A stretch of 64,000 bases of DNA from Physcia stellaris (Eukaryota > Ascomycota > Lecanoromycetes > Caliciales > Physciaceae). Below the pieces are notes generated by a model. That model made no database searches. It was not told the origin of the DNA and saw only the letters and a program-made list of their open reading frames with translations. Made by a program: the position numbers and the translations under genes. The DNA lies in NCBI GenBank assembly GCA_018902385.1, contig JABSSW010000063.1:62001-126000 (forward strand). The letters run 5' to 3'. Positions 13,619 through 57,935 of this stretch are shown in pieces (within the stretch, counting starts at the first letter, position 1; each line of letters opens with the position of its first letter).

Positions 13619-14261
13619 GCCGTTTGAAGTCTGCGTTATTGACGATCGGCATCTGATCATGTATGTTCCACGACTAAGGATTGGGTACACAAAATAGTGG
13701 CTCCGAATTTTAGAGCTGAAGATGATGTTCTCAATGGCATGATATCTAGTCTAAGGTTAGTCATTGCTGCAGTATCAGTGTTCCACGCTCACGATCTAGA
13801 GACGCTAGGATGTCCTACCCTCGGGTCATCGTCGGCGGTGCTCTGCTGTGTGAGCTGTCGGATTCTGAGGAGCAGCCAAGTTCGTAAACCAAGGATCTAT
13901 AGGGTACTGGGGTCTACTGAATATGCATCTATCAGCGAGCGAGCCAAGATATAGAATAACAGTCGTGCAGTCCGAAGCGGTGACTGAGTAGAGATGATGC
14001 GTAACTTTATCCTCATGTGCTCGATTACGCCATCAATTAATTACACGATGTCTCCAATATTGAATTATATCCACCTCCGTACCGTCTTGAAACGCCTAAC
14101 AAATTCCTGTAAACCTCTTGCGTTGTTGCAAAGCGTTTATGTCCGCAAAGTCCGATGTCTATGGCTTTGCCAACGTCATACTATTTGATACTCAAACCCT
14201 TCTTCAATTGGGTATACGAAACCGCTGTAGGGAGAACGCACCCTTTTACCTCAATGCGTGC
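13619..14261. other. Intergenic, nup192 3' side and cul4 promoter
   Basis: These 643 bp hold no ORF with recognisable homology. The open frames here are short and low-complexity, and the in-frame extension of cul4 upstream of 14262 begins at a non-ATG codon. The region presumably carries the nup192 3' end and the cul4 promoter. Confidence 0.5.
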
Positions 14262-17200
14262 ATGCCTTCCTCCCCGCGCAACAACAGCCGGTCCAGCGAA
14301 ATCCAACGAGCCTTCGCATCCACCGAGCAGAAACACAAAACCATATCCGAGCTTTTCGCAACCTCGAAAAGCGTTTCTGTTGCACGACCTAACGTTTTAG
14401 ACTTGCAAGATCCCTCGCCTCGTAAGCGCATTAAATATACACATCCAGGTCCTTCAACCAACGATTACCTTTGTCCAACAGCAGCAATGGATAGTTCGCC
14501 ATCTACTTCATCTATCCGATCAACCGGCAACAATGCGGCTGAGGCTATCGATCTGACAGGCTCACCCGGTCCTGCTCTTTCAAAATCTTCTCCTTCACGA
14601 AAACGACTCAGCGGTTCAGTTAGACCTACTTCGTTCGCACCCATGGGTGGCCCGAAGAAACTCATTGTCAGGAATTTGAGGACGGCCCCCAAAACTGACC
14701 TCAATCAATATTACAACCACGTTACAGATCAGCTCGAAACCGCCTTGTCAGCAATATTCAATAATTCGAAGCTACCATGCTCACTTGAAGAACTTTACAA
14801 GGGTGTGGAATCGCTGTGCAAGCAGAATCGTGCTCCCGCCATACATAAAATGCTTCAAGAAAAATGTAGGAAACATGTTTCGGTACAGATGTTGGAGGCG
14901 CTCTTACAACATTCTGCTACCGCTACACCCACCAATGTACTTGAATTGGTTGTAAAAGAATGGTCGATGTGGAGAATGCAGCTGGTAAGTAGCAGTTCGA
15001 TAATTTATAAAGACTTTACTCAATCTGCCTTAGACTACCATTCGTTCCATCTTCTACTATCTAGATCGATCGTATCTGCTTCAAAGGTCTACCCTAGAGT
15101 CAATCGAGGAGATGGGTATCAAAAGCTTTCGCAACTATATTTATGTCAATGGATCGCTGAAGGAAAAGATCTTACAAGGCACATACGACCTGTTGGCGGC
15201 TGACCGTCAGGGAGAGCTTGAAGCTGAGTCAAAGGCACTCCTCGTGGAATCTGTGAAGCTGTTACATGCACTTGGCGTCTACACGAAAGACTTCGGACCC
15301 AAAGTCATCGGAGACTCGGAGAAATATTTGCTGTCCTGGGCCAGTGAAAAGAGCTCATCTTTAAGTTTGCCATGTTACATCTCCGAATGCCACAAACTTG
15401 TTGAGAACGAGACAAAACGCTGTGATAGATTTGGTCTGGACAGAACGACCAAGGATACCCTGGAAACCCATATAGAGGTAAGTGTTTCATTACATGATGT
15501 ATTCCATGTAGTAACGGCAAATTCGACGGGCCTTATCATGGTCTGGGTTTCTGCAACATCAGCTGCTTTTTCAAAAAGGGCAAAACACAGTTATGTCTTG
15601 TGATGTTTGGTATATCTATTCGCTTACGCGAGAGCATGCAGTACAATTTCTATATTGAGTCGTGATCACGGGGAGAATGTCTTAGCTGACTGTTGGTCGA
15701 TCAGGATATTGCGGTGGAACGCAAGCAAGATATATTATTAAAATCCGACAGCGTGTCAATACTCCTCAACGACCACAATCTTCTTGCTTTAGACCAATTA
15801 TATGCGCTATTGAGACGTCGCCGCTTGAGTGAGAACTTGAGACCGCCTTTTGAAACTTATATCTTAGGGAAAGGAGCTGATATTGTCTTTGATGAAGCAC
15901 GGGAACAAGAGATGGTTCCAAGGCTTTTGGACTTCAAGCGGGAGCTGGATGAAGTGTGGGCTAAATGCTTTCAAAAGCATCAGGGTCTCGGTCATACTCT
16001 GCGGGAATCATTCGAAACATTCATTAACAAGAGTAAGAGGAGTAATATGACATGGGGTACAGATAACCCAAAACCCGGTGAAATGATTGCGAAGTATGTA
16101 GACATGATCCTTAAAGGGGGCACGAAAGCCATCGCACCTACAGCAACGGACACTCCAGGACGGAGACCCAGTAAATTGGAAGATAACGAGGACGATTCGA
16201 GTATGGACGAAGAAACGGAGATCAGCAATCAATTAGACCAAGTGCTCGAACTTTTCCGCTTCGTACATGGCAAAGCGGTTTTTGAGGCATTCTACAAGCG
16301 CGATCTAGCTCGTCGGCTGCTCTTGGGCAGAAGTGCCAGTTCAGACGCTGAAAAAACGATGCTAACTCGACTTAAATCTGGTATGTTGATTTTCATTCCC
16401 CAAGCCACTTTCGCCTTCAGAATCCGAATACGATGGAATTCACCTCATTGTTTTGCCGAGTGGCCAAAGACTATAGATACTGACTGGAATGTAGAGTGCG
16501 GCGCTGGCTTTACCCATAACTTGGAGCAGATGTTCAAGGATATCGAGATGGCCAGAGAGGAAAACGTATCGTACCGATCAATGAGGGAAGAACGCCAGAT
16601 CAAATCACCTGTAGATCTCAATGTGAACATACTCTCAGCATCTGCTTGGCCCTCCTACCCAGATGTACGTATATTGTCAAGAACGTTCCTCGCCTTCGCC
16701 TAACGACGCAGCCTCTCGCTAGCACGAGAAGTGTATTGCTCTCTATTTTATGACGGCACGCTCACTATATTGCCTAGGTCGCGGTCGAGATCCCTCGAGT
16801 GATCCAGTCAGCAGCAGCTAGCTTCGAAGCGCACTACAAAAATAAGCACACCGGCCGCCGCCTAGCCTGGAAGCATGGGCTCGCTCACTGCCAACTCAAA
16901 GCTAATTTCCCAAAAGGCAACAAAGAGATAGTCGTCAGCGCATTCCAAGCTATCGTCCTCCTCCAGTTCAACGCTAAGGATTTAAATGAAGCCGTGCCCT
17001 ATCCCCAAATCCAAGCTGCCACCAATCTCGACGACACCGAACTGAAACGTACCATGCAATCACTTGCTTGTGCCAAATACCGCGTCCTCAGCAAGACACC
17101 AAAGGGGCGAGAGGTCAACAGCACGGATACCTTCAGCATCAACGCCAACTTCTCAGACCCCAAGTACCGCATCAAAATCAACCAGGTCCAAGCCAAGGAG

Positions 17201-17539
17201 ACCAAACAGGAGAACAAAGAGACACATGAGCGCGTAGCTGCCGATCGCAATTTCGAGACGCAGGCCGCGATTGTGAGGATCATGAAGAGCCGAAAGACGA
17301 TTACGCATGTGGAGTTGATCAGTGAGGTTATCGTTGCGACGAGGAGTAGGGGCGTGCTCGATCCGGCTGATATCAAAAAGAATATTGAGAAGTATGTTTC
17401 ACTTAGTAATGTCGATTTTCATTCCGTCGGACGAATCCTAGAAGCTGACCCTTTGCGCTTGTCCAGATTGATAGAGAAGGATTATATGGAGCGCGATGAG
17501 ACAGAAGATGGAAGGAATGCTTACAGCTATCTCGCCTAG
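14262..17539 (+). CDS. cul4: Cullin-4-type ubiquitin ligase scaffold
   Basis: This is the scaffold of a cullin-RING ubiquitin ligase. Exons are 14262-14984, 15034-15477, 15705-16380, 16495-16664, 16778-17391 and 17467-17539, giving 899 aa. A Ser/Pro-rich basic N-terminus of about 130 residues precedes KKLIVRNLRT and LEELYKGVESLCKQ, typical of Cul4. Cullin repeats follow (YYLDRSYLLQ), then the cullin homology domain (FEAFYKRDLARRLLLGRSAS; ECGAGFTHNLEQMFKDIE). The Nedd8 acceptor motif IVRIMKSRK places the modified lysine near residue 844, and the winged helix ends NAYSYLA. Start 14262 is the first ATG in frame. Cul4 normally recruits substrates through DDB1-like adaptors. Dcn1, which promotes cullin neddylation, is encoded about 4 kb away. 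The last intron is 75 nt, a multiple of three with no stop. Confidence 0.93.
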
Positions 17540-18401: not shown

Positions 18402-20983
18402 TCAGGTCTCCGCCGCTTGCCATCCGAGATGTGGCAGCTCCTGGTCTTCCCACAAATACCTAACGCCACCACTTTCGTCTCTTTGCGAGGCAGGATGCCT
18501 TGTCCTGTCTGCCTCAGTGACTGCTGCTGCTCCATCCCGCGCCGTCAAGCCCAGGAACCACCGTACTAGCCAACAAAGCCATGCCCAAAGCCATGTCGGG
18601 CCGGCAGCAAGCCCCACTCTCGGGGCTGGCGGATCGTTGCTAGGAGCCGCCAGGACCGTATGGTGTTCTTTGGGCTGCTTTATATGCTTGCGCCTCACCC
18701 TTTCAGCCTTCGCTTCATCCACCAGGACTAGCGCGGCGCTGTGCCAGCCAGCGGCAGCGACCTTCAGCGCAAAGTACGCTGGCAATTCATGCTCACTTTC
18801 ACTGACACCTTCCTCCCAGCGACGACCTTGCTCCTCGAACCAGTCACCAGACTTGACGTACCACTCTCTTGGAGAAGGTCTTGGTATCCTGTCCCGAATT
18901 TGCCGGAATGAATCATGCAGCCACTGTCTCATTAATGGCTCGAACCACACTGTCCTACGCTGCTCCCCGCTTAGCACTAAATCTGGCTGATTATCGGCTT
19001 GCTGTACGCCACGAAGCCAAGAGGTAATGTGTGTAGCACCCAGGCCGAAAGCTCCGACGTTTCCAGGATCAATACCAAAGGATGAGATAGTGCCATTGGC
19101 GTGTAGAGCGTGGGTGTGGTAGTCTCCGAAAGCGAGGGAGATGACGGACTGATGCTGCAAAGAAGCGATCAGTTTTGGTCGAGAATGCACGTCTGACGGA
19201 AGGGTGTTGGCTATTGATGCGTTGATGAAGGCGTCTATGAGTGAGCGAGAAGCTGTCAGGACTTCCCCGGAGGATGTGAAGATTGCAAAAGAGCGGAAGG
19301 AACCCTGAAGATCTTGGATCTCGAAGGGCGATGAGAATTCAGTTGATTTGAACGTTGTAAGCTCTACGGGCCTGGCATCGGACTCTACTTCCGTGGATGT
19401 GGTCGTGCTGTAAGCAAACACTTTATTGAGCTCTGTGGTAAACACGATATATCCTTCAAGAACAATGTGTTGGGTTACTACACCAACTTCAGAGTCTAGG
19501 GAATCATGTGAAGTCCAGCGGCCACCTTTCCGAGATTGACCAGTGCCAGGTACGGTGGAAGAGTGAGTCAGCATGATATCCGCTCCGTCTCTGAGATCGT
19601 AGGGGCTCGGGTCCCAGAATATAATTCCAGTTCCTTCGACATAGACAGAACTTCGGTCCCAACCTATCACCGTTCTAGCAAAGCGGAAATGTTAACTTGA
19701 GGGATTGAGATACAGCTCACACACCTGCAACGACCCGGAGCACGTTTTTCTCTTTCAGACTCAGAAGCATGAATTCAACCTGCACTGCTTGCTTTTGGGC
19801 CCAGAACCAGATCTTGCCATCTGTATATAAGTCCAAGTCAGCATTGTCTAATCCACGATGCTGTGATCAAAATCGAAGATGAGTCGTATTAGCGGCTGAA
19901 CTCCCTTATTTCGAAGCTATGCGGACGCAGGAATTAAACGGCAAGAAAGCCCGAAATTACCTACCATCTGAAAGCCCTAATACGTGATTGCGCCCCGTAG
20001 AGTACTGCTTTATCGCTGTGCTAGGCTCATATCGGGAATTGTTGGTGGGAGGGAAACCGGGAGGAAAATCGAGGCGTTTCAGCCCAGTGTCATGAGCTTC
20101 GGCAGAGATATAGCCATTAAAGGTCCCAAGGAGGTAAATAACCCCAAGTGAGTTGAGTAGCGTGGTAGACCAACCACTACCGAATTAGCTTAGGTACCCC
20201 AGCTAAGATCTATTATAAACCCTTGAATTTGCGAAGGGACAGCAGTTGGATAAGTGTGACAGCAAGAAGACCTACCCACATTGCACATCAGCCACTATGC
20301 CGACTTCCTCCGTGGCAAAGCTTGGACGCATCGGATATCCTACATGTCCAAACAGCGAAGGTGTTTGCGGTTGCCTCAAGGGGCGTCGACGAAGGTCCCC
20401 TCGGGGCTGTATGTCTGTTGAGTCCATATCGTGAGTACCAATGCTACCTCGATCATTGTTCCCCCACGTGAAGATTTGTGTCTGCGTTAGCAGTCGATGG
20501 TACAGCCATTGCCAACGAGTTCCATCAGCTTGGAACAGCGGCTGACTTCGGACGCGGAAATGCGTCAACGTCAAGGTTCGCCAGAAGGTCGGGTCTTCTC
20601 GATAAACCAGCAGACTTTTCTATCGTATAATTTAGCGCAACTCTGGTCTTCAACCAGTCGACCCATAGCGAGGCCAGTGCTAGAGGAATAGGTTCTATAG
20701 GAGAAGGTCCTTGTTTGAATACCACCAAAAAACGGCACAGCTTTTTGCCCTTCAAGCTTTTGGTTACTCGCCGATCACTGCAATGAGACTATACGGTACT
20801 TTCGAGGAACATGAGATGGGAACCTACACTAGAGCAAGTGAAATTCAAGAAGTCGATCGCGGAAAGGTATGGAAAAATAGAAAAGAGGATATCCGTAGCT
20901 ATTAACTCCAATTAGCTTTGTTCGAGGCAGTCTGGCTTCGCAGTGGGAAGCATACGCAAGTCTTGAAAGGTCATAGTCGCCAT
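18402..20983 (-). CDS. saf1: SCF-associated factor 1-like F-box / RCC1-repeat protein
   Basis: This is a substrate adaptor of an SCF ubiquitin ligase. Exons are 20983-20956, 20898-20828, 20619-20276, 20176-19965, 19820-19721 and 19674-18402, giving 675 aa with every phase closing. The F-box starts at residue 9 (LPTDILFSIFPYL ... EDPTFWRTL) and is split over three exons. RCC1/beta-propeller-type blades follow (QIFTWGNNDRGSIG, GKIWFWAQKQ, ISLAFGDYHTHALHANG, VAAAGWHSAALVLV). The order F-box then RCC1-like repeats is the Saf1 architecture. An unusual tail after the last repeat carries a Trp-rich hydrophobic run at about residues 610-628. The gene lies between cul4 and dcn1, both cullin-pathway genes. 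The 208-nt intron 20620-20827 is longer than its neighbours. Confidence 0.87.
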
Positions 20984-21240: not shown

Positions 21241-24200
21241 TCAGGCCAGCCACTCTAGCATAGGAGTAATGCCATCCCTTCCCATGTCATCTAGTGCGTG
21301 CTCATTCTTCCATCTTCCCTTCTTGCTCACCCGTTTTTCTCTCACATATTCTACGAATTGGTCGATCACTCCAGGCCATGCTCCGTCTTCACTCCACCAG
21401 CCCATCGTCTCACCCCCAGGCTCCATGGTCTTGAGCACCAGTTTTCCGGTTTGCTCCCACATGTCCCTGCTCACCCCTTTTTTCCATCGAGTTTCGAGGT
21501 AATCGAGCCACCATTCGAGCCAAGGGGATGGCTGAGGTGTTGTTGACGTTGGCGGTGAGTGCCAGTTGACCGAAGGTGATTGGAGCAGAAGGCGCCAGTA
21601 TTCAATCGCAACATCGAGTGGGAGGGACTTTTGACCGGTAACCAGGGCAAGCTTGAATGTATGTTTGTAGATGCGGCGGAATAGATCCGGTTGCGGCAGC
21701 TCACGGCGAAGGTCTCGTATGACAGCCTTCTGTGCGTTGAGGTCGTTGGCCCTAATGGATAATGAGTAATCTCACCTGTTGCTCCACAACATCAGTTTCC
21801 ATACCGGCGTGTTTTCCAGCCATCAACAAAGCCACTTCGGGCCAGCTCGCCCATCGTTGGCGCTGAGAGCTCGGTTAAGACTGCAAGAAGGACAACCTCG
21901 TCGAGCTTGACACCTAGGTCGCCAAGATAGCGCATTGAGCCATCCACGCCGATGGTATCTGGATCAGGATCTGACTTGTCTAGAAAAATTCTGTTAGCCA
22001 TCCGGTGAAACTTGACACCACCAATGTCGCAGTACCTTTATACTTGTCAAACAATTTATTCAGGTTTGCAGTTGATCCAGATGAGCTTGGCGAAGCGGTA
22101 GGGTTTTGGAAATATCTATTGTTTAGGGCAGACTGGTTAGCTTTTGGACGTCGGCTTCTCATCATCTGCAAACCAACGAAAAACGATTGCCGGTTTTCTG
22201 CAGCGCTATAAGACATATCTCTAGGGATGCCAAGGAAAGGGGCCCCATCTATGTAAAACTTGGGCGTCGTGGGTTTTTTCGGCTGGGTAAGACGCAACCG
22301 TTGGGGCCTTTTCAATGGCTCATCGGCGCCTATGGGTTCAATGATCGGTTTGCTGCATTCCGGACAACTAAATAAACGTGTTACGTGTCTTGCATCACGT
22401 AGTAATTCTGGCTTTCCAAAGTACAGCTCGTAAAGATCCACCTGAATGCTTGAAGGCCTATGCGGGCAAGGAGTCGAATTTAGTGCACCATCAAAAGTTG
22501 GTGGACATTCTACTTTCGAGCCGTGATTTGCGGGCGAAGCCTGCGAACCCGGAGACAATAACATTGATTCCCGATTAACTATGCGAGAAACATCGGTATG
22601 GGAGCCCAAATGCCCCTCTTTCGCAAGTTCTGAGAGACAACGCTGGATCAGGGTAACGAGGCTGGAAACTTTTGCACTGCTCGGATCACGCTCGAGAAGA
22701 CCAAGCATGACAACCAGCTCTCTTTCCATAGGATTCTGAATTGGCCGAATCGAACCAGAATTTATACCTGCCGTCAAATCTGCTTTCAATAACAAGGCGA
22801 CATCCCGAATGGAGTTCTTGTAGCATTCGCTATTCCGTGGGAGGTTCGTCCTGAAGATGCCATCCTCTATGACGTTCAACTCAAGGACTTCCAAGATTGT
22901 GTCGAAGTTTGCCCGGAGCTTTGGTTTGTAATCTGACCGAGGTGCTGTGAATCCAGATATTTCGTTCTCGTCTAGCATAATTCCTTTACTGTCATTGATT
23001 TCTGTATGCTCATCTAAGACGTGTGCAACAGAGTCCCCAAACTCATGTTTAGAATTGTTCGTTCGAGAAGAGCTTGACTCGGAGTTTAGTACAAAGTCTG
23101 CGGAAGCGCAGTTTATTGAAGATCCTGCATTAAAAGTTCTCTTGACGAATGTATGTTGGGTGTCCCATTCTTCCGCAAATAGGTCGACGCTGCCAACGAG
23201 TGTGGGAGGTCGCATTCGGCGACCATCATGGATAGTTCCGGACGCTTTACGTTTCGTTGGTGAACTACACACACTGAAGCTTGACTTTCTAAGCTTCCTT
23301 GAAGTCGTTCTTTGTGGTGTATCGGATCTAATACGGCGGTAAACGTAATCGTTCGGTAGGCCAATGTCAAGTCCCAGCTTCCTAGCTTTTTGGGTGGGCA
23401 TTTTAAGACCCCAGAGGTCGGCGGAAAAGCCTTCTTCTGGTGAAATGCTTAGCACATCGTAGTCAGCGGCTTCTGGGTTTCCAGCTGTGCCACTAAAACT
23501 TTGCTCCCACGCAACTGCTGGCGATCCAATTGTTTGGGAACTCATGTCGTTGCAGAATGTAGTAACAGAGCTGTCGCCACGCGTGTGACTCCGCGCCAGG
23601 GTTTCTGAATCGAGGCTTGGTGAACGGTCTCTACTCATTCGTACCTCAGGCGGTAGCATATCAGAGCCAAGTCCTCTACTATCTTCCTGAGTTATATGGC
23701 CAGTCTCAGATGTCATCTTCGTATCATTACTTCTGTGAAGGCTCTTGTCCCAATCTTGCAATTTGCCAAGGATGAATGATACCTCATCTAGTGAGAAGTC
23801 TTCAAGACCATATTCCTCTCTGTATTCAGTGAGTGCTATCACAGGGTCCAACCCGCTGAGTATTCTTTCACCATATTGCTCGAAGAAGTGATTTGCGAGC
23901 GACTCCAACTCTTGGATCACATCTGCGCCAACTTTATGACTTGGACTTGAAGGCGGAGACTCTTCGGCAGCACGTTCGAATATAGCCTGTGCAGCTTGAG
24001 CTGGCTTGACTTCAACGCTGGAGATCATACATGAGAAGTACGGTCGATCTATAAGCATACCCTCCAGCCGCATGCTGACAAATGACACGGCCTCGGAAAG
24101 GTTTAGATTCCCGGATCGATAGGCTTTGATGAGATTGTCAATATCTTCAACGATCTCAGATTCAAGAGATGTTGGAGAATTCTGAGAGAAAGGGCCTTCC

Positions 24201-25681
24201 TTGCGGACCTCTTGGAAGATGGAGCTTCTTGGCAACCCAAAGTCTTCTAAGCGAGTTGCCAGATCAGGTAGAGTCGCATCAGCCATATTTAATAGAAAGC
24301 GATATCGAATAATCGCACTTTCAAAGCTCAATTGGCCCTCGTTCAATTGTGCGTGAGTACGCGTCAACATGGTTTCTAGAGACGCCTCGTCAACTTCATT
24401 CCCATACGACACTACATGTTGCCCTGGGATGCCGATAGCCTCCAGAAGCCAGGCTAGGTCGAAAATCGAGATGTCCGGCATTCCAAAAAGAGTCCTATAA
24501 CGGTCAATAGCTTCAGTAATGACGAGAGCGCCTTCTTTGAACGAGTCGTACGTGTCCTGGAGCCGCCTATACACTGCATCTTCATCCTCAAATCCTTGAT
24601 ATTCATCTTGGGGGATTCCAGGTTCAGTATCATCGGCAGCCCATCTCTTGGGAGACTCGTTGTGTCCGCTTGCGGATATCAGCTTGTTTCTGATGAGGTG
24701 ACGGTAACGAATACTTGGGTGATGCGAATGCTGAATATCAGGATCTATGCCAAGTAGAAGCCTTTGTTCTCTCCCACGAGGTGCCTTCGAGTTGGCCAAA
24801 ATCTCGATCGAGCGCAAGAATGACGATTTAAACCCCAGCTCCTTGAGTATTCGATGAAGGTCCTTCTCCGGCATGAGCGGTCGTTTCAGCGCGTATCTAA
24901 GCATTGTGGGTATCTTGGACCAGTATTCGACGTCAGATGCTGGAGCAGCCGCTGCCCAGTGACTGAAGAGTTTTCGGGTTGATTCAACATTGGCTTGAAT
25001 TCTTTGACTTCTCGTACTCCAACACGGAAACTCGTTCACATCATAGAAGTCCGTCAAATCATAATCAAACGGAACATCCTCTGTCTTTAGTAGCTGTTCA
25101 GAGACAATGACCTCGTCCTCGTCCTGCAATGTTCTGCCAGTGCTGTCCAAGGGAAGCTGCGCAAGTCGTTTCTCTAGATCCCTCCATGATCGCGCCAATC
25201 TCGCCGGGTCACCGTGTTTCAACGGACGACGACGACGATTTCGAGGGTTCTGGCTCGACGGCAAGCTCAAACTTTCGCCATCTACCTTGTAGCCGACTAC
25301 TTGGGCCATATCTTTCCAAAATTTGCAAACCAGATACACCCAAATATGGATGCCTTTCCCACAAATTTGCAAGGACCAATAGGTTCTGGGAAGAAAGTAA
25401 CGATAACAGAAGATAGAGAAATACATACGCATCTACTGCCTGTTCGACATTCCATCCGTAGGCCTTGAGTTGCTGGGATTGAGATATATTAGCGGATCAC
25501 TCCTTCCATGCTTGTAGTTCGAATGCCATGCCAAAAGAAGAAGCGGCAGATCTTCGCAGCGTGCCCCGATGTAGCTATAAGGTAAATGGCTTACCTTTGC
25601 AGCAAGACTATCTTTTGTTTGTGTGAAGCCAACAAATTGTGCTATCGCGCCCTTTTGGGAAGGCGTGTACGCCGAAGGCAT
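21241..25681 (-). CDS. dcn1: Dcn1, defective-in-cullin-neddylation protein (short splice form)
   Basis: This scaffold-type E3 promotes Nedd8 transfer to cullins. Exons are 25681-25595, 25472-25429, 22115-22036, 21979-21805 and 21751-21241, giving 298 aa, the normal Dcn1 length. Exons 1-2 encode the UBA-like N-terminus (QKGAIAQFVGFTQTKDSLAA and QLKAYGWNVEQAVDA). Exon 3 gives YFQNPTASPSSS and NKLFDKYK. Exons 4-5 give the PONY domain (GSMRYLGDLGVKLDEVVLLA; WSEDGAWPGVIDQFVEYV). The intron between exons 2 and 3 is 3,313 nt and contains a huge same-strand ORF. Its acceptor has a perfect gctaac branch site 20-odd nt upstream, so the short product is well supported. An alternative acceptor at 25385 would retain the ORF in frame. 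Functionally it pairs with cul4 nearby. Confidence 0.9.
21980..25309 (-). CDS. Unrecognised 1,109-codon ORF inside the dcn1 intron, overlapping dcn1 exon 3
   Basis: I do not recognise this protein. The frame is uninterrupted from an ATG at 25309 (MAQVVGYKVDG, purine at -3 and G at +4) to a stop at 21980. In that frame it reads through the 3' splice site into dcn1 exon 3 and stops in the following intron. Residues about 240-525 contain three or four degenerate helical units of roughly 60 residues (EAIDRYRTLFGMPDI...DLAWLLEAIGIP; SAIIRYRFLLNMADATLPDL). The middle is Ser/Thr/Pro-rich and probably disordered. Near residues 947-985 there is a possible Cys/His metal site (CPH ... FSCPECSKPI). There is no signal peptide, transmembrane segment, transposase or nuclease motif that I can see. 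It could be a nested gene, an alternative giant dcn1 exon, or a 5' part fused to the PONY exons. The long open frame is certain; the gene model is not. Confidence 0.65.
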   Translation of the reverse strand: MAQVVGYKVDGESLSLPSSQNPRNRRRRPLKHGDPARLARSWRDLEKRLAQLPLDSTGRTLQDEDEVIVSEQLLKTEDVPFDYDLTDFYDVNEFPCWSTRSQRIQANVESTRKLFSHWAAAAPASDVEYWSKIPTMLRYALKRPLMPEKDLHRILKELGFKSSFLRSIEILANSKAPRGREQRLLLGIDPDIQHSHHPSIRYRHLIRNKLISASGHNESPKRWAADDTEPGIPQDEYQGFEDEDAVYRRLQDTYDSFKEGALVITEAIDRYRTLFGMPDISIFDLAWLLEAIGIPGQHVVSYGNEVDEASLETMLTRTHAQLNEGQLSFESAIIRYRFLLNMADATLPDLATRLEDFGLPRSSIFQEVRKEGPFSQNSPTSLESEIVEDIDNLIKAYRSGNLNLSEAVSFVSMRLEGMLIDRPYFSCMISSVEVKPAQAAQAIFERAAEESPPSSPSHKVGADVIQELESLANHFFEQYGERILSGLDPVIALTEYREEYGLEDFSLDEVSFILGKLQDWDKSLHRSNDTKMTSETGHITQEDSRGLGSDMLPPEVRMSRDRSPSLDSETLARSHTRGDSSVTTFCNDMSSQTIGSPAVAWEQSFSGTAGNPEAADYDVLSISPEEGFSADLWGLKMPTQKARKLGLDIGLPNDYVYRRIRSDTPQRTTSRKLRKSSFSVCSSPTKRKASGTIHDGRRMRPPTLVGSVDLFAEEWDTQHTFVKRTFNAGSSINCASADFVLNSESSSSRTNNSKHEFGDSVAHVLDEHTEINDSKGIMLDENEISGFTAPRSDYKPKLRANFDTILEVLELNVIEDGIFRTNLPRNSECYKNSIRDVALLLKADLTAGINSGSIRPIQNPMERELVVMLGLLERDPSSAKVSSLVTLIQRCLSELAKEGHLGSHTDVSRIVNRESMLLSPGSQASPANHGSKVECPPTFDGALNSTPCPHRPSSIQVDLYELYFGKPELLRDARHVTRLFSCPECSKPIIEPIGADEPLKRPQRLRLTQPKKPTTPKFYIDGAPFLGIPRDMSYSAAENRQSFFVGLQMMRSRRPKANQSALNNRYFQNPTASPSSSGSTANLNKLFDKYKGTATLVVSSFTGWLTEFF
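22116..25428 (-). other. 3.3-kb dcn1 intron with an alternative 43-nt intron sharing its donor
   Basis: The donor gtatgt at 25428 can pair with the acceptor at 22116 (branch gctaac, acceptor caatag), giving normal Dcn1. It can also pair with an acceptor at 25386 (tttcttcccag), removing only 43 nt. The latter joins exon 2 in frame to the giant ORF, which in turn continues in frame into exon 3. All other introns in this window are 46-227 nt, so 3.3 kb is a clear outlier. Confidence 0.75.
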
Positions 25682-31788: not shown

Positions 31789-33018
31789 ATGGACGGTCAG
31801 TTCTCTTCAACATCACTGCTGAATTACCCGAGGCAAGGCCAGAAGGTACGCTCTCAGAGTGTCAAACTGATCGGACCATGAAGCTGACTCGAAACCCACC
31901 CAGCGAACGCACCAGCAGATGATTGCAGATCACACAATCTCACCTCCACCCTGGAACTCGTCAGAGCTCCCTTATTCATCCAGTTCCTTCCTCCAGAACG
32001 ACTTTCCAATGAACCGCTTTGTTGGTGACGGCTTGGACTACAGACGGCCGGTCATGTCTCAGCCCAATACCAACGTTATAGATCTTACAGAAGAGTCTTC
32101 AACACCGAGGACCAACAGAGCAGCAACTCGAGGTGTGATCTCAACATCGATACCCAGACGGTCTGGTCGGCCTGAGCATCCGATCATCGACCTGGAGGAG
32201 GAGTACGGGGATGACGAGCCTGACGTACAGAGCGAGCATACAAGAGACGCAAGTCCTGAATTTGAACTACTTTATTCCAGACCCTTATCGGCAGCGAGAC
32301 CTCGATCCCAGTCTTCTGGCGCCCGTCGTGATGGGTCACAGTCGAGACGAGTGGGGAGGCCGGTGACGCAGAGTACCATACAGAGATCTGTGGCCAGTAT
32401 ACACAGAGGGTTGCAAGAAGCTACGAATCGGATTGGATTTTATCAAAGCATGTTACGTCCTGCGCCTCAAGCACCCGGACATCACCACCACCATCACCAA
32501 GGCCACCATCATCATCAAGCAGCTAGGCATCGAGTTCCGAACGAGGCCGATATGCTATTTCTGCAAGATGTCGGCCTGGATTTCAACCTCCCTGATCAGT
32601 TGGACTTCGAAACTCAAGGCTTTCGGATGGGTGACGTAGTCCAACCCCGTCCACAACCACCTCCACCAACTTATGACGCTCCTCCCAAAGCCAGAATTGG
32701 CTTCACACGGTCACCGAGAGAGGATGATGTTTTAGTGTGTCCCAATTGTGATAGCGAATTAGGCATAGGGAGGGATGAGGAGAAGAGACAGGTGTGGGTG
32801 GTCAAAAAATGTGGTCATGTAAGTCTTGTATTCAATAGTGGCAGACCCGGTACTAATCCTCGTAAAAGGTCTATTGCGGCGCATGTGCAAAGAATCGTAC
32901 GCAGTCGAGGGGCAAGGGGCCAAGGACAACAAGCTCTCCGCCCTTCAAGACATGTCGAGTGGAGGATTGCAAGTCGAAAACAAGTCACGCGACAGCCATG
33001 TTCCAAATCTACCTGTGA
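31789..33018 (+). CDS. SIM-containing RING protein, Slx5/Rfp1 (SUMO-targeted ubiquitin ligase)-like
   Basis: Exons 31789-31845, 31904-32818 and 32869-33018 give 373 aa. Two SUMO-interaction-like motifs are visible in the N-terminal half, NVIDLTEE and PIIDLEEEYGDDE, each with acidic residues following. The C-terminus has a RING-like Cys/His set: VCPNCDSELG, KKCGHVYCGACAKNR and FKTCRVEDCKSK. SIMs plus a C-terminal RING is the layout of SUMO-targeted ubiquitin ligase subunits such as fission yeast Rfp1. The first exon is inferred from an in-frame upstream ATG. A low-complexity polyhistidine stretch (GHHHHHHQGHHHH) lies near residue 210. The spacing of the first RING pair is atypical, so catalytic competence is uncertain. 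Confidence 0.75.
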
Positions 33019-33508
33019 TTTCCAATTCTCCAGGTTCGTAATCAAAATGACGACATCCAACGTTTGCTGCATAGCGTACGGCGTTTTCCGCGGTCTTCTT
33101 CCGTGTCCAGAGATACCTGTGAATTCAAACGGATAGGGATCCCCAAGGTCCAGCATTCTACCAATATGGGGACCGTCCAAGTACATTGGTGGGCTCATCG
33201 TCCATGGGGGCTATATCAGCATATCTTAGGTGGAACTTTAAAATGTAAATTAGCACGATAGCAGCATGCTTACCTGATCTGATCGTCTTCGGCTTCAAGA
33301 GGCGTCTCGAGATGGCCAAGACCATGTTCTAGACTAGACTCGACCCACAAATAAAGTAACCCAAGCCTAAGGGCTTACGGGACGGCTCGGCAACGGCAAG
33401 CTTAATTCTCAGCCTCAACCTAATATGTAAAGATTCAATACTCCAATTTCCCAAATCGCACGTTGACACTTTAGGTATACCTCCATCCTCCGAAAATCAG
33501 CATCTGCC
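33019..33508. other. Intergenic between RING-protein gene and phs1
   Basis: These 490 bp contain no supported gene. Short frames on either strand have no recognisable product. They should contain the upstream gene's 3' end and the phs1 promoter. Confidence 0.45.
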
Positions 33509-54670: not shown

Positions 54671-55343
54671 TTGAGCATTCGAAGAAGCTCTGTATGCATA
54701 GCGGATAGTTGTTTTGTACCTTAGATTGTAAACATTGCTACGTCGCACGACATATCAATATTCTAGCTTCACTCTCAGCCCCTCCTGACACTAGTAGTTA
54801 GCTAGACGTGTATCTTCTCAGAATGAAGAAATGGTAGCTCGACTTCGGGAAACCCATACTTCCAATTGATCCAAACACGGGTAACCTTGACTCGATGTTC
54901 CTTCGTTTGATAAGCACTCGAAGGTCTCCTTATCGACAACACTATTCCTGTTTAGGCCCAGCGTCGACAGCCCCTCCTTCCGAGCTACCTGAGCTACCTT
55001 ACCTGACCCTCATCATCACATCCCACCTTGAGCCATCCAAGCTACCATATTACCTGTGCTTGTGTTGTGGAAATCCTGCCTGGGAAGCAGCTTCTACCGG
55101 CTTCTCAAAGCCCCCAGAAAACGCTTCCTTCACTCCCTGTCACTTCAATGACCTTGTCAGACCCCGCATGATCGTTTGAATACCAAGGAGTCATAAGGCT
55201 GCCTAGGCACCCGAGTCTACTACCTTCTTCGGTACGCTCAACCTCACCAAGCATTAGCACACTCAATAAGTCTTCATGTACTTGTCCAGAAGTTTCACAC
55301 AGATCATTGATCTGCTTTAATGCCTTTTTTCTGACTCTGAAGC
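54671..55343. other. Intergenic between mvp1 and the orphan membrane-protein gene
   Basis: These 673 bp contain no supported gene. A frame at 54895-55179 is low-complexity and unlike any protein I know. A tandem word (gagctacct) occurs near 54979-54996. The promoter of the downstream gene is expected here. Confidence 0.45.
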
Positions 55344-57935
55344 ATGCAGTCACAGGAGCACAGTAGACCCGTAGTCAAACGGTTCCACAGAACTCCGACC
55401 CTCGATCAGTGGCTCTCACATTCCGTGATAGTTCCCATGGCTTCGGGTCCCGAGGATAGCTTTGTCGATGACACTTCAAGCTCGCTAGGAGACAGTACAT
55501 ACGACTTCCTTGATGACAAGAGCGCTTTCACCACGGACGATGAAGATGCCAGTAATTTGACCAAATCTACAACCTCCAACGATGCACAAGATTTTGAGAT
55601 ACCAGCCATCGAACAGTCTCAAAACACCGCTCATACCGTCAGGCCATCGGATGATACAGCCAGCCCCAAGCAGAATGATGCTGTTACAAAGGAGGACGAC
55701 CAGCGCATCATCGATGACGATCATACGGACATCAAACTTGACGAACCTTTTCGATACAGTGCAGACATCGCGAGGTCTGTCGAAGGTTCGCATACTCTGA
55801 GAATCTTCGACGAACTTGAGGTGAAAGAGATGAAGAATATCGTCGGCGCCCAAGCTCCATTGTCCCAACTCAAGGCTACAGTTAGACAGACCATGGCTGG
55901 CAATACCATGTCTCTTCGGGGACCATTCAAATTATTATACATCGGAGAAAACGCAGCTAAGGATACCATTGTACAGAAGATCGGCTCGGCACTGACTGCG
56001 TCATTGGGAAGCTCTATGTCGCGGTTGGAAACGCCCGGGTCGTCCAGATTTAGCGTGGTTCCTATCTCATCGTTTGGGGAGACGCGGGCTCCTGAAGTGC
56101 TCCTTGTTGATTCCTTAGGCATCGAGATCAGAGTCGATCATTGTGCCTCCGCTACGTTCGCTAGAAAGGAAGACAGCAACGACTCAATCTCTCTGCGTCT
56201 GTCGAATGGCATGCTATTAACATCGAGATGGTCGTTACACGAGTCAAAATTCATTATAGAGGCCCGCTCTCCTGGTTGGGAACTCCCTCAGTTAGCAGTG
56301 TTTTATCTGTCAGACACAGAGACCATGGAAGCAAAGCAGACTCGACGATTTGCCCGATCGTTCTTGAGCCGTCATAAAGTTTCATGTCTCGTCATTACCC
56401 AGAGCCAGCTTTGGAGTAGATCAACCGAAGCTATGACCCTGGACCACCTAACACCACATTTATGCCTTGAGACAAGCGGCTTGGATAACGTTCGGCCTCG
56501 TGTTATCAAGCGCCTCCCTATCGATCTAGCAACCTTCGTTAATCTCGATGCAGTCCAAGTCAATAGAAACCTAGCGTGCCTTGCGGAAGCCTCCTCCTCA
56601 GCCGAGACGAAGTTCAAAGACTTGCCAATACCCAAAGATGACAATGTAAAGCGCGAATTGATTGCCGATGAGACTGGCCGCTGCTCTATCAAAGCTGCCG
56701 GAACCAAATACTCGGGTTGGGTCGACTCCATACTCGAGACAATCCATCCGTTGGTCGAGTCCCCTATCTCGGCTTTGTTCCTACTTACCCTGGCTGTCAG
56801 CTGTTTGGGTTTGGTACCTTACTTTGCTTACTCAGGCTCAGCCATTTCGAATGCCTCGGGTTTTCAGCCTGTACCAATTTCGACCCTGGAACATCTGAGG
56901 ACAGGCGCCAAGTCGAAGGCAGTACAAGCTGAATCGGCTCTCGCATCACATCTGGCATCCACAACTCCCACCCGAGCAGCGCTGCCCAGTCTCGAAGCAG
57001 CTTCGCACGCCAACACAGATCTGGCCTCTTTCTTGCTCGATTCACATGCCCTTACGCCGAATAACTCCGCAAAATTCAAAGTCCATGTGGTTGGAGAGCA
57101 TCACGTTGTCCTTCGACCGCCACATTGGTTTATGCGATATAGAAAAGCACCGAAGCTGGTCTTCAATATCACCCGGAAGGACAAATCTGTAGAATACGAG
57201 CTCTCTATGCTTTTTGACGGAGTGTATGCCTTGAAAATATCCCGCGAAGATGCTCATGGACTTCTAGACGTATCTGTACGTACGACATCAAAGCCAAAAA
57301 TCAATGAAACGTTTCAAGTGGATTTCGGCAACTCGTGGCTGCGTATCGATGGGTGGAAGGATGTTGCCCGGAGTGTATCGCATTCGATTCGGAAGGATCT
57401 TCAACTAGTACAGACGGGTCTGAGCATCTTACGCGCACAGACTAATATAGGAATACAGACGTATACCAGAAACGTTGTGGGAAAGATGCACTCCGTCGGT
57501 CGAGATCTAATCGATGCCAGAGATACAGCTCTTAATCGGACCGCCATTACCACCGACCTCATGCTAGCTCAGACCAAAGGCCTCTCGCGGGTTCTGTCTA
57601 GCAAATTCAATTACAAAGGCGCAGTGCTGACGAAGCAGCTTTCTTTGCATGGTCGGCAGGTTCGAAGCAACCTCCATCAATATGCCGGGAGTAAAGCGGC
57701 GGCTTTGAAGCAGAACATCAAGATTTTCTCTCGAACAATCAGGAGCATTAACATCAAAGCGGTGGGCCAAGGTGTCCAGCAGCTTCGGCAAGACCAGCTA
57801 CGCTTAACGCAGAAAAAAGCGCTGAAGGCTTGGTGGAAGATAGCAGGCGTGCCGAAAGCTACCTCTGGAGGAAGTGTTTCGCAGGGACTACAACGTAGGA
57901 AAGGACTGCGATCAAGGAAGACAGACAACAAATGA
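55344..57935 (+). CDS. Orphan single-exon membrane protein, 863 aa
   Basis: I do not recognise a family. The ATG at 55344 opens an uninterrupted 863-codon frame, unusual here because most neighbours have introns. The first 170 residues are acidic and Ser/Thr-rich. A mixed region (GPFKLLYIGENAAKDTIVQK; RAPEVLLVDSLGIEIRV) follows and resembles an alpha/beta fold. One clear transmembrane segment lies at about residues 472-496 (ISALFLLTLAVSCLGLVPYF). After it come a beta-rich part (VVGEHHVVLRPPHWFMRYRK) and a long basic amphipathic helical C-terminus ending GLRSRKTDNK. A single-pass organelle or nuclear-envelope protein is possible, but that is inference. It is very likely a real gene. Confidence 0.8.
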   Translation: MQSQEHSRPVVKRFHRTPTLDQWLSHSVIVPMASGPEDSFVDDTSSSLGDSTYDFLDDKSAFTTDDEDASNLTKSTTSNDAQDFEIPAIEQSQNTAHTVRPSDDTASPKQNDAVTKEDDQRIIDDDHTDIKLDEPFRYSADIARSVEGSHTLRIFDELEVKEMKNIVGAQAPLSQLKATVRQTMAGNTMSLRGPFKLLYIGENAAKDTIVQKIGSALTASLGSSMSRLETPGSSRFSVVPISSFGETRAPEVLLVDSLGIEIRVDHCASATFARKEDSNDSISLRLSNGMLLTSRWSLHESKFIIEARSPGWELPQLAVFYLSDTETMEAKQTRRFARSFLSRHKVSCLVITQSQLWSRSTEAMTLDHLTPHLCLETSGLDNVRPRVIKRLPIDLATFVNLDAVQVNRNLACLAEASSSAETKFKDLPIPKDDNVKRELIADETGRCSIKAAGTKYSGWVDSILETIHPLVESPISALFLLTLAVSCLGLVPYFAYSGSAISNASGFQPVPISTLEHLRTGAKSKAVQAESALASHLASTTPTRAALPSLEAASHANTDLASFLLDSHALTPNNSAKFKVHVVGEHHVVLRPPHWFMRYRKAPKLVFNITRKDKSVEYELSMLFDGVYALKISREDAHGLLDVSVRTTSKPKINETFQVDFGNSWLRIDGWKDVARSVSHSIRKDLQLVQTGLSILRAQTNIGIQTYTRNVVGKMHSVGRDLIDARDTALNRTAITTDLMLAQTKGLSRVLSSKFNYKGAVLTKQLSLHGRQVRSNLHQYAGSKAAALKQNIKIFSRTIRSINIKAVGQGVQQLRQDQLRLTQKKALKAWWKIAGVPKATSGGSVSQGLQRRKGLRSRKTDNK

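Follow-up and report, generated by a model that had tools for sequence, protein, structure and literature searches.

The closest described systems to the locus reported here are DCN1 and its relatives DCNL1-5 (DCUN1D), which carry the same C-terminal PONY (Cullin_binding) domain. According to the accessible part of the literature on the mammalian DCNLs, these proteins bear differing N-termini on the shared PONY domain, which are thought to set their localisation, and DCNL3-5 are devoid of the UBA domain (PMC4886823). In fungi, intron retention at some infection stages has been described for dcn1 of Sclerotinia sclerotiorum (Sscle_07g055740), an indication that the splicing of dcn1 is open to variation in filamentous ascomycetes. 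The variant is among those cut to an ORF <30 aa; the accessible part of that report mentions no large N-terminal exon and does not specify the retained intron (PMC9597501). Regarding genes that appear to lie within other genes, for 22 of 53 tandem human nested genes the most likely interpretation was a splice variant of the host, as opposed to true nesting, as stated in the accessible part of the study (PMC3192792). Among the matches listed in the open-licence literature, no title or abstract opening described a dcn1 arrangement such as the one presented here.

In Physcia stellaris, dcn1 is read from the reverse strand of the window, i.e. the whole stretch of DNA analysed (64,000 nucleotides, bases 62001-126000 of contig 63); the genome searched comprises 44 Mb in 147 contigs. 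The original prediction held that a normal Dcn1 of 298 aa is obtained only if 3,313 nt (25428-22116) are removed, and the five exons displayed in Table 1 splice accordingly. The spliced protein matches UBA_4 with 42.5 bits and Cullin_binding (PF03556) with 109.2 bits, and residues 7-269 of human DCNL1 (8or2_F) align to it as a single stretch that spans the 25429/22115 join. Its UBA N-terminus is of the DCN1, DCNL1 and DCNL2 type. Dcn1 and human DCNL1 agree in the alignment at the D of DMW, the A of GAWP and the D of IDQF, three residues that may correspond to the acidic-Ala-acidic (DAD) cullin-binding patch. The profile search of the genome found at least one PF03556 match, located in exon 5, as well as three Cullin_Nedd8 matches, which may represent substrates of the DCN1 products. 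The 3.3-kb intron 2 is far beyond the usual ascomycete length; in Verticillium dahliae, for instance, the mean intron is given as 100 bp in the accessible part of the source (PMC5294800).

Table 1. Features of the dcn1 locus in window coordinates. X is the long open frame in the span of intron 2; P0005 is the homologue from Heterodermia.
Feature	Coordinates	Strand	Remarks
dcn1 exon 1	25595..25681	-	UBA part 1, MPSAYTPSQKGAIAQFVGFTQTKDSLAAK; 26/29 residues identical in P0005
dcn1 intron 1	25473..25594	-	122 nt
dcn1 exon 2	25429..25472	-	UBA part 2, QLKAYGWNVEQAVDA; apparently in P0005 too, in a shifted frame there
Canonical dcn1 intron 2	22116..25428	-	3,313 nt; donor GTATGT, branch-site-like GCTAAC, acceptor AATAG
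Putative internal promoter with 5' leader, for the X transcript	25310..25428	-	
Possible alternative 43-nt intron, exon 2 to X in frame	25386..25428	-	rival model, weaker
X, presumed alternative first coding exon	22116..25309	-	1,064 codons, starts ATG GCC, continuous with exon 3
X repeat R1, residues 240-306	24392..24592	-	R1-R2 profile match, probability 99.5
X repeat R2, residues 306-372	24194..24394	-	in tandem with R1; mostly missing in P0013
Most conserved X segment, residues 596-700	23210..23524	-	KRKAS (23240-23254) in 14/14 rows
C-x-H...C-x2-C zinc-site-like motif, X residues 948-985	22355..22468	-	13/14 rows
Dual-purpose stretch	22116..22144	-	codons KANQSALNN(R) containing GCTAAC (from 22141) and the AATAG acceptor
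dcn1 exon 3	22036..22115	-	YFQNP...KYK; YFQNPTASPSSSGSTANLNKLFDKYK; would be common to both products
dcn1 intron 3	21980..22035	-	56 nt; the open frame enters and stops at the intron end
dcn1 exon 4	21805..21979	-	PONY region, first part
dcn1 intron 4	21752..21804	-	53 nt
dcn1 exon 5 and stop codon	21241..21751	-	PF03556 match at 21346-21732, the sole one found in the genome

An uninterrupted same-strand frame of more than 3.3 kb is present at intron 2, just as it had been described. It is open from 25432 to 21980 and comprises 1,109 aa when counted from the ATG at 25309. The earlier placement of all 1,109 aa inside the intron stands for 1,064 codons, whereas the remainder extends beyond it: one Arg codon lies across the acceptor, 26 codons belong to exon 3, where the frame is dcn1's own, and 18 run into intron 3. 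The 500 mononucleotide-shuffled versions of the intron had open frames of at most 226 codons, versus 1,103 in the real sequence. The codon score of the X frame was +0.059 per codon, and the other five frames scored from -0.053 to +0.002; along X it was uneven, with parts near zero or negative (-0.090 at residues 913-988). This measure is weak, since two of the six held-out training frames from the neighbourhood scored about -0.01 (the other four, 0.064-0.104) and intron 1, the negative control, reached +0.139 in one frame.

Protein searches, in which the best 8,000 candidates were scored, found 13 homologues of the frame (P0001-P0013), 45-99% identical, which form an alignment of 14 rows together with the window. 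P0001 is a distinct sequence on another contig and is 99% identical to the window frame. The only named carrier is Heterodermia aff. obscurata (P0005), a lichen fungus of a lecanoromycete genus, whose gene model has dcn1 exons on both sides of X. These two homologues argue against a misassembly or an ORF private to this assembly, which the original prediction had named as refutations, and a chance ORF is ruled out by the shuffles and by the 13 homologues with their uneven conservation. No point in support of an artefact of either kind was found, and we give it hardly any credence. No homologues beyond these 13 were gained from a profile search (best 8,000 candidates scored) or by querying with residues 570-690 of P0008, a conserved part. 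The distribution of X thus seems restricted, which is provisional because the fungal coverage of the protein database is uncertain, and its range may be wider than these 13 homologues. Pattern scans for the relatives' DNA gave 99 matches in genome_contigs and 62 in viral_contigs, none of which was confirmed.

These homologues also bear on whether X is a gene of its own, as was first proposed. A separate same-strand nested gene with its own 3' end would borrow exon 3 for its protein and stop inside intron 3; in fact, the frame read mechanically ends at 21980, and X has its own ATG. Nevertheless, a stop ahead of exon 3 would be anticipated for such a gene, and none of the 14 proteins has one. 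All of them keep the phase of exon 3, and the junction reads Arg followed by YFQNP in every row. A nested gene would further need intron 3 to be kept, yet its donor-like start is retained wherever it can be seen (13 rows): in each unspliced row, KYK/KYR is followed by Gly and then Ile, Thr or Asn, whose codons begin with A, which fits a G/GTA donor. Also against it, the tails past exon 3 are of variable length, and exon 3 is better conserved than they are. Identity to the window is 77-96% for exon 3 in the 12 homologues other than P0001 and 25-83% for the intron-3 read-through tail in eight comparable rows (P0001 being 100% identical in both), the tail comparison omitting P0005, which is already spliced there, and three rows that are too short.

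Moreover, P0005, an NCBI automatic gene model of 1,356 aa, joins X to PONY in one protein, in the order dcn1 exon 1, an apparent exon 2 in a shifted frame, X, exon 3 and the PONY domain. P0009 reads past intron 3 into exon-4-like sequence in a shifted frame, and the match of that frame to exon 4 indicates that exon 4 follows there too. Dcn1 exons are found on both sides of X in at least two fungi, and exon 3 comes directly after X in 14/14 rows. Because no protein stops before exon 3 and all share its frame, a giant alternative N-terminal exon fits better than a second gene, and the proposal of a separate gene nested in the intron is not upheld; we regard it as improbable. What does survive of it is a conserved coding frame of no known family within the dcn1 intron span, for which special expression is required. 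Since the sequence past exon 3 is donor-like and poorly conserved, the natural product would be X joined to PONY (1,319 aa).

Regarding the other end of the gene, the Dcn1 tail (21241-21345, reverse strand) reads VSKKGRWKNE... after REKR in the window and GEQEGRMEE in P0005. Since GEQEGKMEE is obtained from a neighbouring frame of the window, the two tails differ by a frame shift.

If X is an alternative exon, its last codons coincide with the splice signals of intron 2. The window bases for Lys-Ala-Asn-Gln-Ser-Ala-Leu-Asn-Asn-Arg include GCTAAC and AATAG/A. In 14/14 rows, an invariant Ala precedes Asn (13) or Asp (1), so that CTRAY is permitted, and seven codons on, Asp (9), Asn (4) or His (1) precedes an invariant Arg, which permits YAG/A; the codons for Asp, Asn and His all end in a pyrimidine. 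With both branch site and acceptor permitted in every row, these bases may act as splice signals in addition to coding. In the relatives this pattern was read from amino acids, which permit the signals. Among 734 ungapped neighbouring column pairs, the branch-type pattern is found in all rows at two places and the acceptor-type pattern at three, and both occur within 45 nt at the X/exon-3 junction only. The junction is compatible with a splicing constraint, for which the amino-acid level falls short of proof, and part of the pattern could be protein constraint because its halves recur at two and three places of X.

Concerning the remaining splice-like sequences, GTATGT is found in intron 2 at the donor only, and RCTRAC and YAG are paired at two places there, one being the terminal GCTAAC...AATAG. 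Weaker GTRNGT donors lie inside X at 23274 and 23272. Splice-like sites inside X were not significantly depleted when compared with synonymous shuffling (lower-tail P 0.19 to 0.63, six measures). Two further ideas were discarded. An acceptor hidden by RNA structure finds no counterpart in the folding around the junction, which is ordinary (z -0.28), and an overlooked intron within X, by which the frame would acquire a stop of its own, was not found in a scan for GTRNG[TC] donors with a CTRAY and YAG acceptor 45-200 nt away.

The 5' region was considered in the same way. With intron 2 retained, the dcn1 frame would extend 72 codons past exon 2 (116 aa in total) and meet a stop inside X, in a frame other than that of X. 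Given this stop, and an intron length that is not a multiple of three (3,313 = 3 x 1,104 + 1), X needs its own start. The Met of X stands at the same place and is followed by Ala (11), Gly or Ser in the 13 rows that include the start, a count that omits P0005, whose first column is the dcn1 start, and in which the start codons of the metagenome homologues are gene-caller choices. The 41 open codons upstream of this ATG score below 98% of the 41-codon windows of X. Seven ATGs between 25681 and 25426 make translation of X improbable on a transcript begun at the dcn1 promoter; two in-frame ATGs, at 25432 and 25426, are placed shortly before or at the start of the presumed promoter and leader. A transcription start inside intron 2 would be the simplest source of X.

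Alternatively, exon 2 could be spliced to X over the 43-nt intron (25428-25386), giving a UBA-X-PONY protein of 1,388 aa, with the 3,313-nt splice as the alternative. The GTATGT donor, a pyrimidine-rich tract and the CAG at 25386 would make an exact in-frame join, and the stretch upstream of ATG 25309 is open in the X frame. However, this intron is very short and has no CTRAY, and the join drops the UBA_4 match from 42.5 to 31.7 bits, still over the cut-off of 21.8. Per codon, the score over the 25 codons that precede ATG 25309 is -0.19, on a level with the worst 3.6% of X windows, which is weak evidence on such a short stretch and given the high score of the intron 1 frame. ATG 25309 is, in addition, matched in 12/12 homologues that include the start. 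Thus, we consider a fusion of all three parts unlikely.

It could also be that X-PONY is the sole product, the UBA exons being leftovers or a 5' leader and canonical Dcn1 having been lost. In favour of this, ascomycetes seldom splice introns of 3.3 kb, and X is conserved; but the near-identity of exon 1 to Heterodermia (Table 1), where exon 2 also seems intact, the UBA match that is completed only by exon 3, and the branch site and acceptor permitted in 14/14 rows all speak for a functional Dcn1, and such a loss appears quite improbable.

As for the protein itself, X was said to belong to no recognised family, and this was confirmed in that no significant match was found in Pfam (14 members searched), NCBIfam (three proteins), PHROGs (window only) or the PDB, besides the Cullin_binding match of P0005, which is its PONY part. 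The PDB matches of the X profile had E values of 1.2 or more. Some matches below the Pfam cut-offs were obtained for HORMA (4/14 members, best E 0.12) and for COMM_HN (3/14, best E 0.024; 17-23 residues in R1/R2), as well as a weak one for DUF6471 (3/14, best E 0.08). COMMD proteins have been linked to cullins, and the COMM_HN match is a lead, not a finding.

Conservation along X is uneven. Ten rows (P0004-P0013) are 62-71% identical to the window at residues 600-700 and 25-36% at residues 701-815, as in a real protein. The KRKAS motif within the most conserved segment may be a nuclear signal. Between Heterodermia and the window, the PONY part is 88% identical and X 49%, so X evolves faster. 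Alignment gaps of 49-89 columns are seen inside X in 6/14 rows (P0008-P0013), with the junction untouched and both ends kept; one repeat is largely gone in P0013, the zinc-like motif in P0011, and other parts in P0008, P0009, P0010 and P0012.

A transposon, mobile element or homing gene was also considered and rejected: no nuclease, transposase or maturase domain was matched significantly in the four databases named above, one X copy was found (that is, at least one in the genome), and the repeats are short and imperfect. A 21-nt direct repeat (76% identical) occurs near both ends of X, at 22155-22175 and 25312-25332, and may be due to chance or be a trace of the insertion of X.

A cullin-4 gene is located at 14100-17536 on the forward strand (PF00888; Cullin_Nedd8 match at 17243-17392; best PDB matches CUL4A/B), at a distance of about 3.7 kb from dcn1; cullins are the expected targets of the dcn1 product. 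Between both genes, the frame at 18405-19691 on the reverse strand is weakly RCC1-like, below the Pfam cut-off. Two other forward-strand frames, 31871-33133 (421 codons) and 55341-57932 (864 codons), have no Pfam match, and the remaining gene content of the window includes Nup192, a TAN domain as in Tel1, and Glyco_transf_15, so that the genes are of fungal or at least eukaryotic character.

Regarding all these data, the explanation that we favour, and hold to be probable, is that one locus provides two NEDD8-ligase helpers by a switch of N-terminus, either UBA or X (~1,065 aa), the latter from an internal start. In the first product, a transcript from the dcn1 promoter would have the whole 3,313-nt intron spliced out and would encode Dcn1 (UBA and PONY, 298 aa). 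In the second, a putative internal promoter would start a transcript at about 25428-25310, whose first coding exon would run from ATG 25309 through to exon 3; with introns 3 and 4 removed, it would encode X-PONY (1,319 aa, without UBA), reading the unused branch site and acceptor as codons. Since the internal start is located downstream of the strong GTATGT donor, the acceptor would be left without its usual partner and stay as codons. Both predicted proteins would share PONY because one PONY domain was found in the genome. Activity could persist with X in place of UBA since, in the accessible part of the source, neddylation does not depend on the UBA of the yeast protein (PMC4886823). By analogy with the N-termini of animal DCNLs, X probably sets where and on which cullin complexes PONY acts, and could steer it to particular cullin complexes or to the nucleus.

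In its broadest form, the proposal is that one DCN1 locus amounts to two NEDD8 E3s in a group of fungi, including at least one lichen-former, in which the lineage-specific X (~1,065 residues) replaces UBA by way of a giant alternative first exon, a 29-base stretch is kept as both codons and splice signals, and the choice of promoter or of splicing switches between two modes of cullin activation; this could as well hold as fail. If true, it would be a fungal single-locus counterpart of the five DCNL genes of mammals, and an uncharacterised protein of a thousand residues would gain a functional handle, tied to cullin neddylation. The locus also offers a natural test of how splice signals and protein code can occupy one set of bases, and it cautions that exons of this type will be described as nested genes.

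Compared with known systems, the predicted arrangement is like that of alternative first exons, with an internal start, a first coding exon of its own and shared downstream exons; X has its own ATG (25309) and continues in frame into the shared exons in 14/14 rows. It differs in that the exon is fungal, of about 3.2 kb and continuous with the next one, the acceptor and branch site being read as codons. Exitrons and retained coding introns have in common with it that the same stretch is an intron in one product and coding in the other, but intron 2 is not a multiple of three and X needs its own start. Finally, mammals have five DCNL genes, whereas here one gene, with the sole PF03556 match found, apparently has two N-termini, one of which exceeds 1,000 residues and belongs to no known family.
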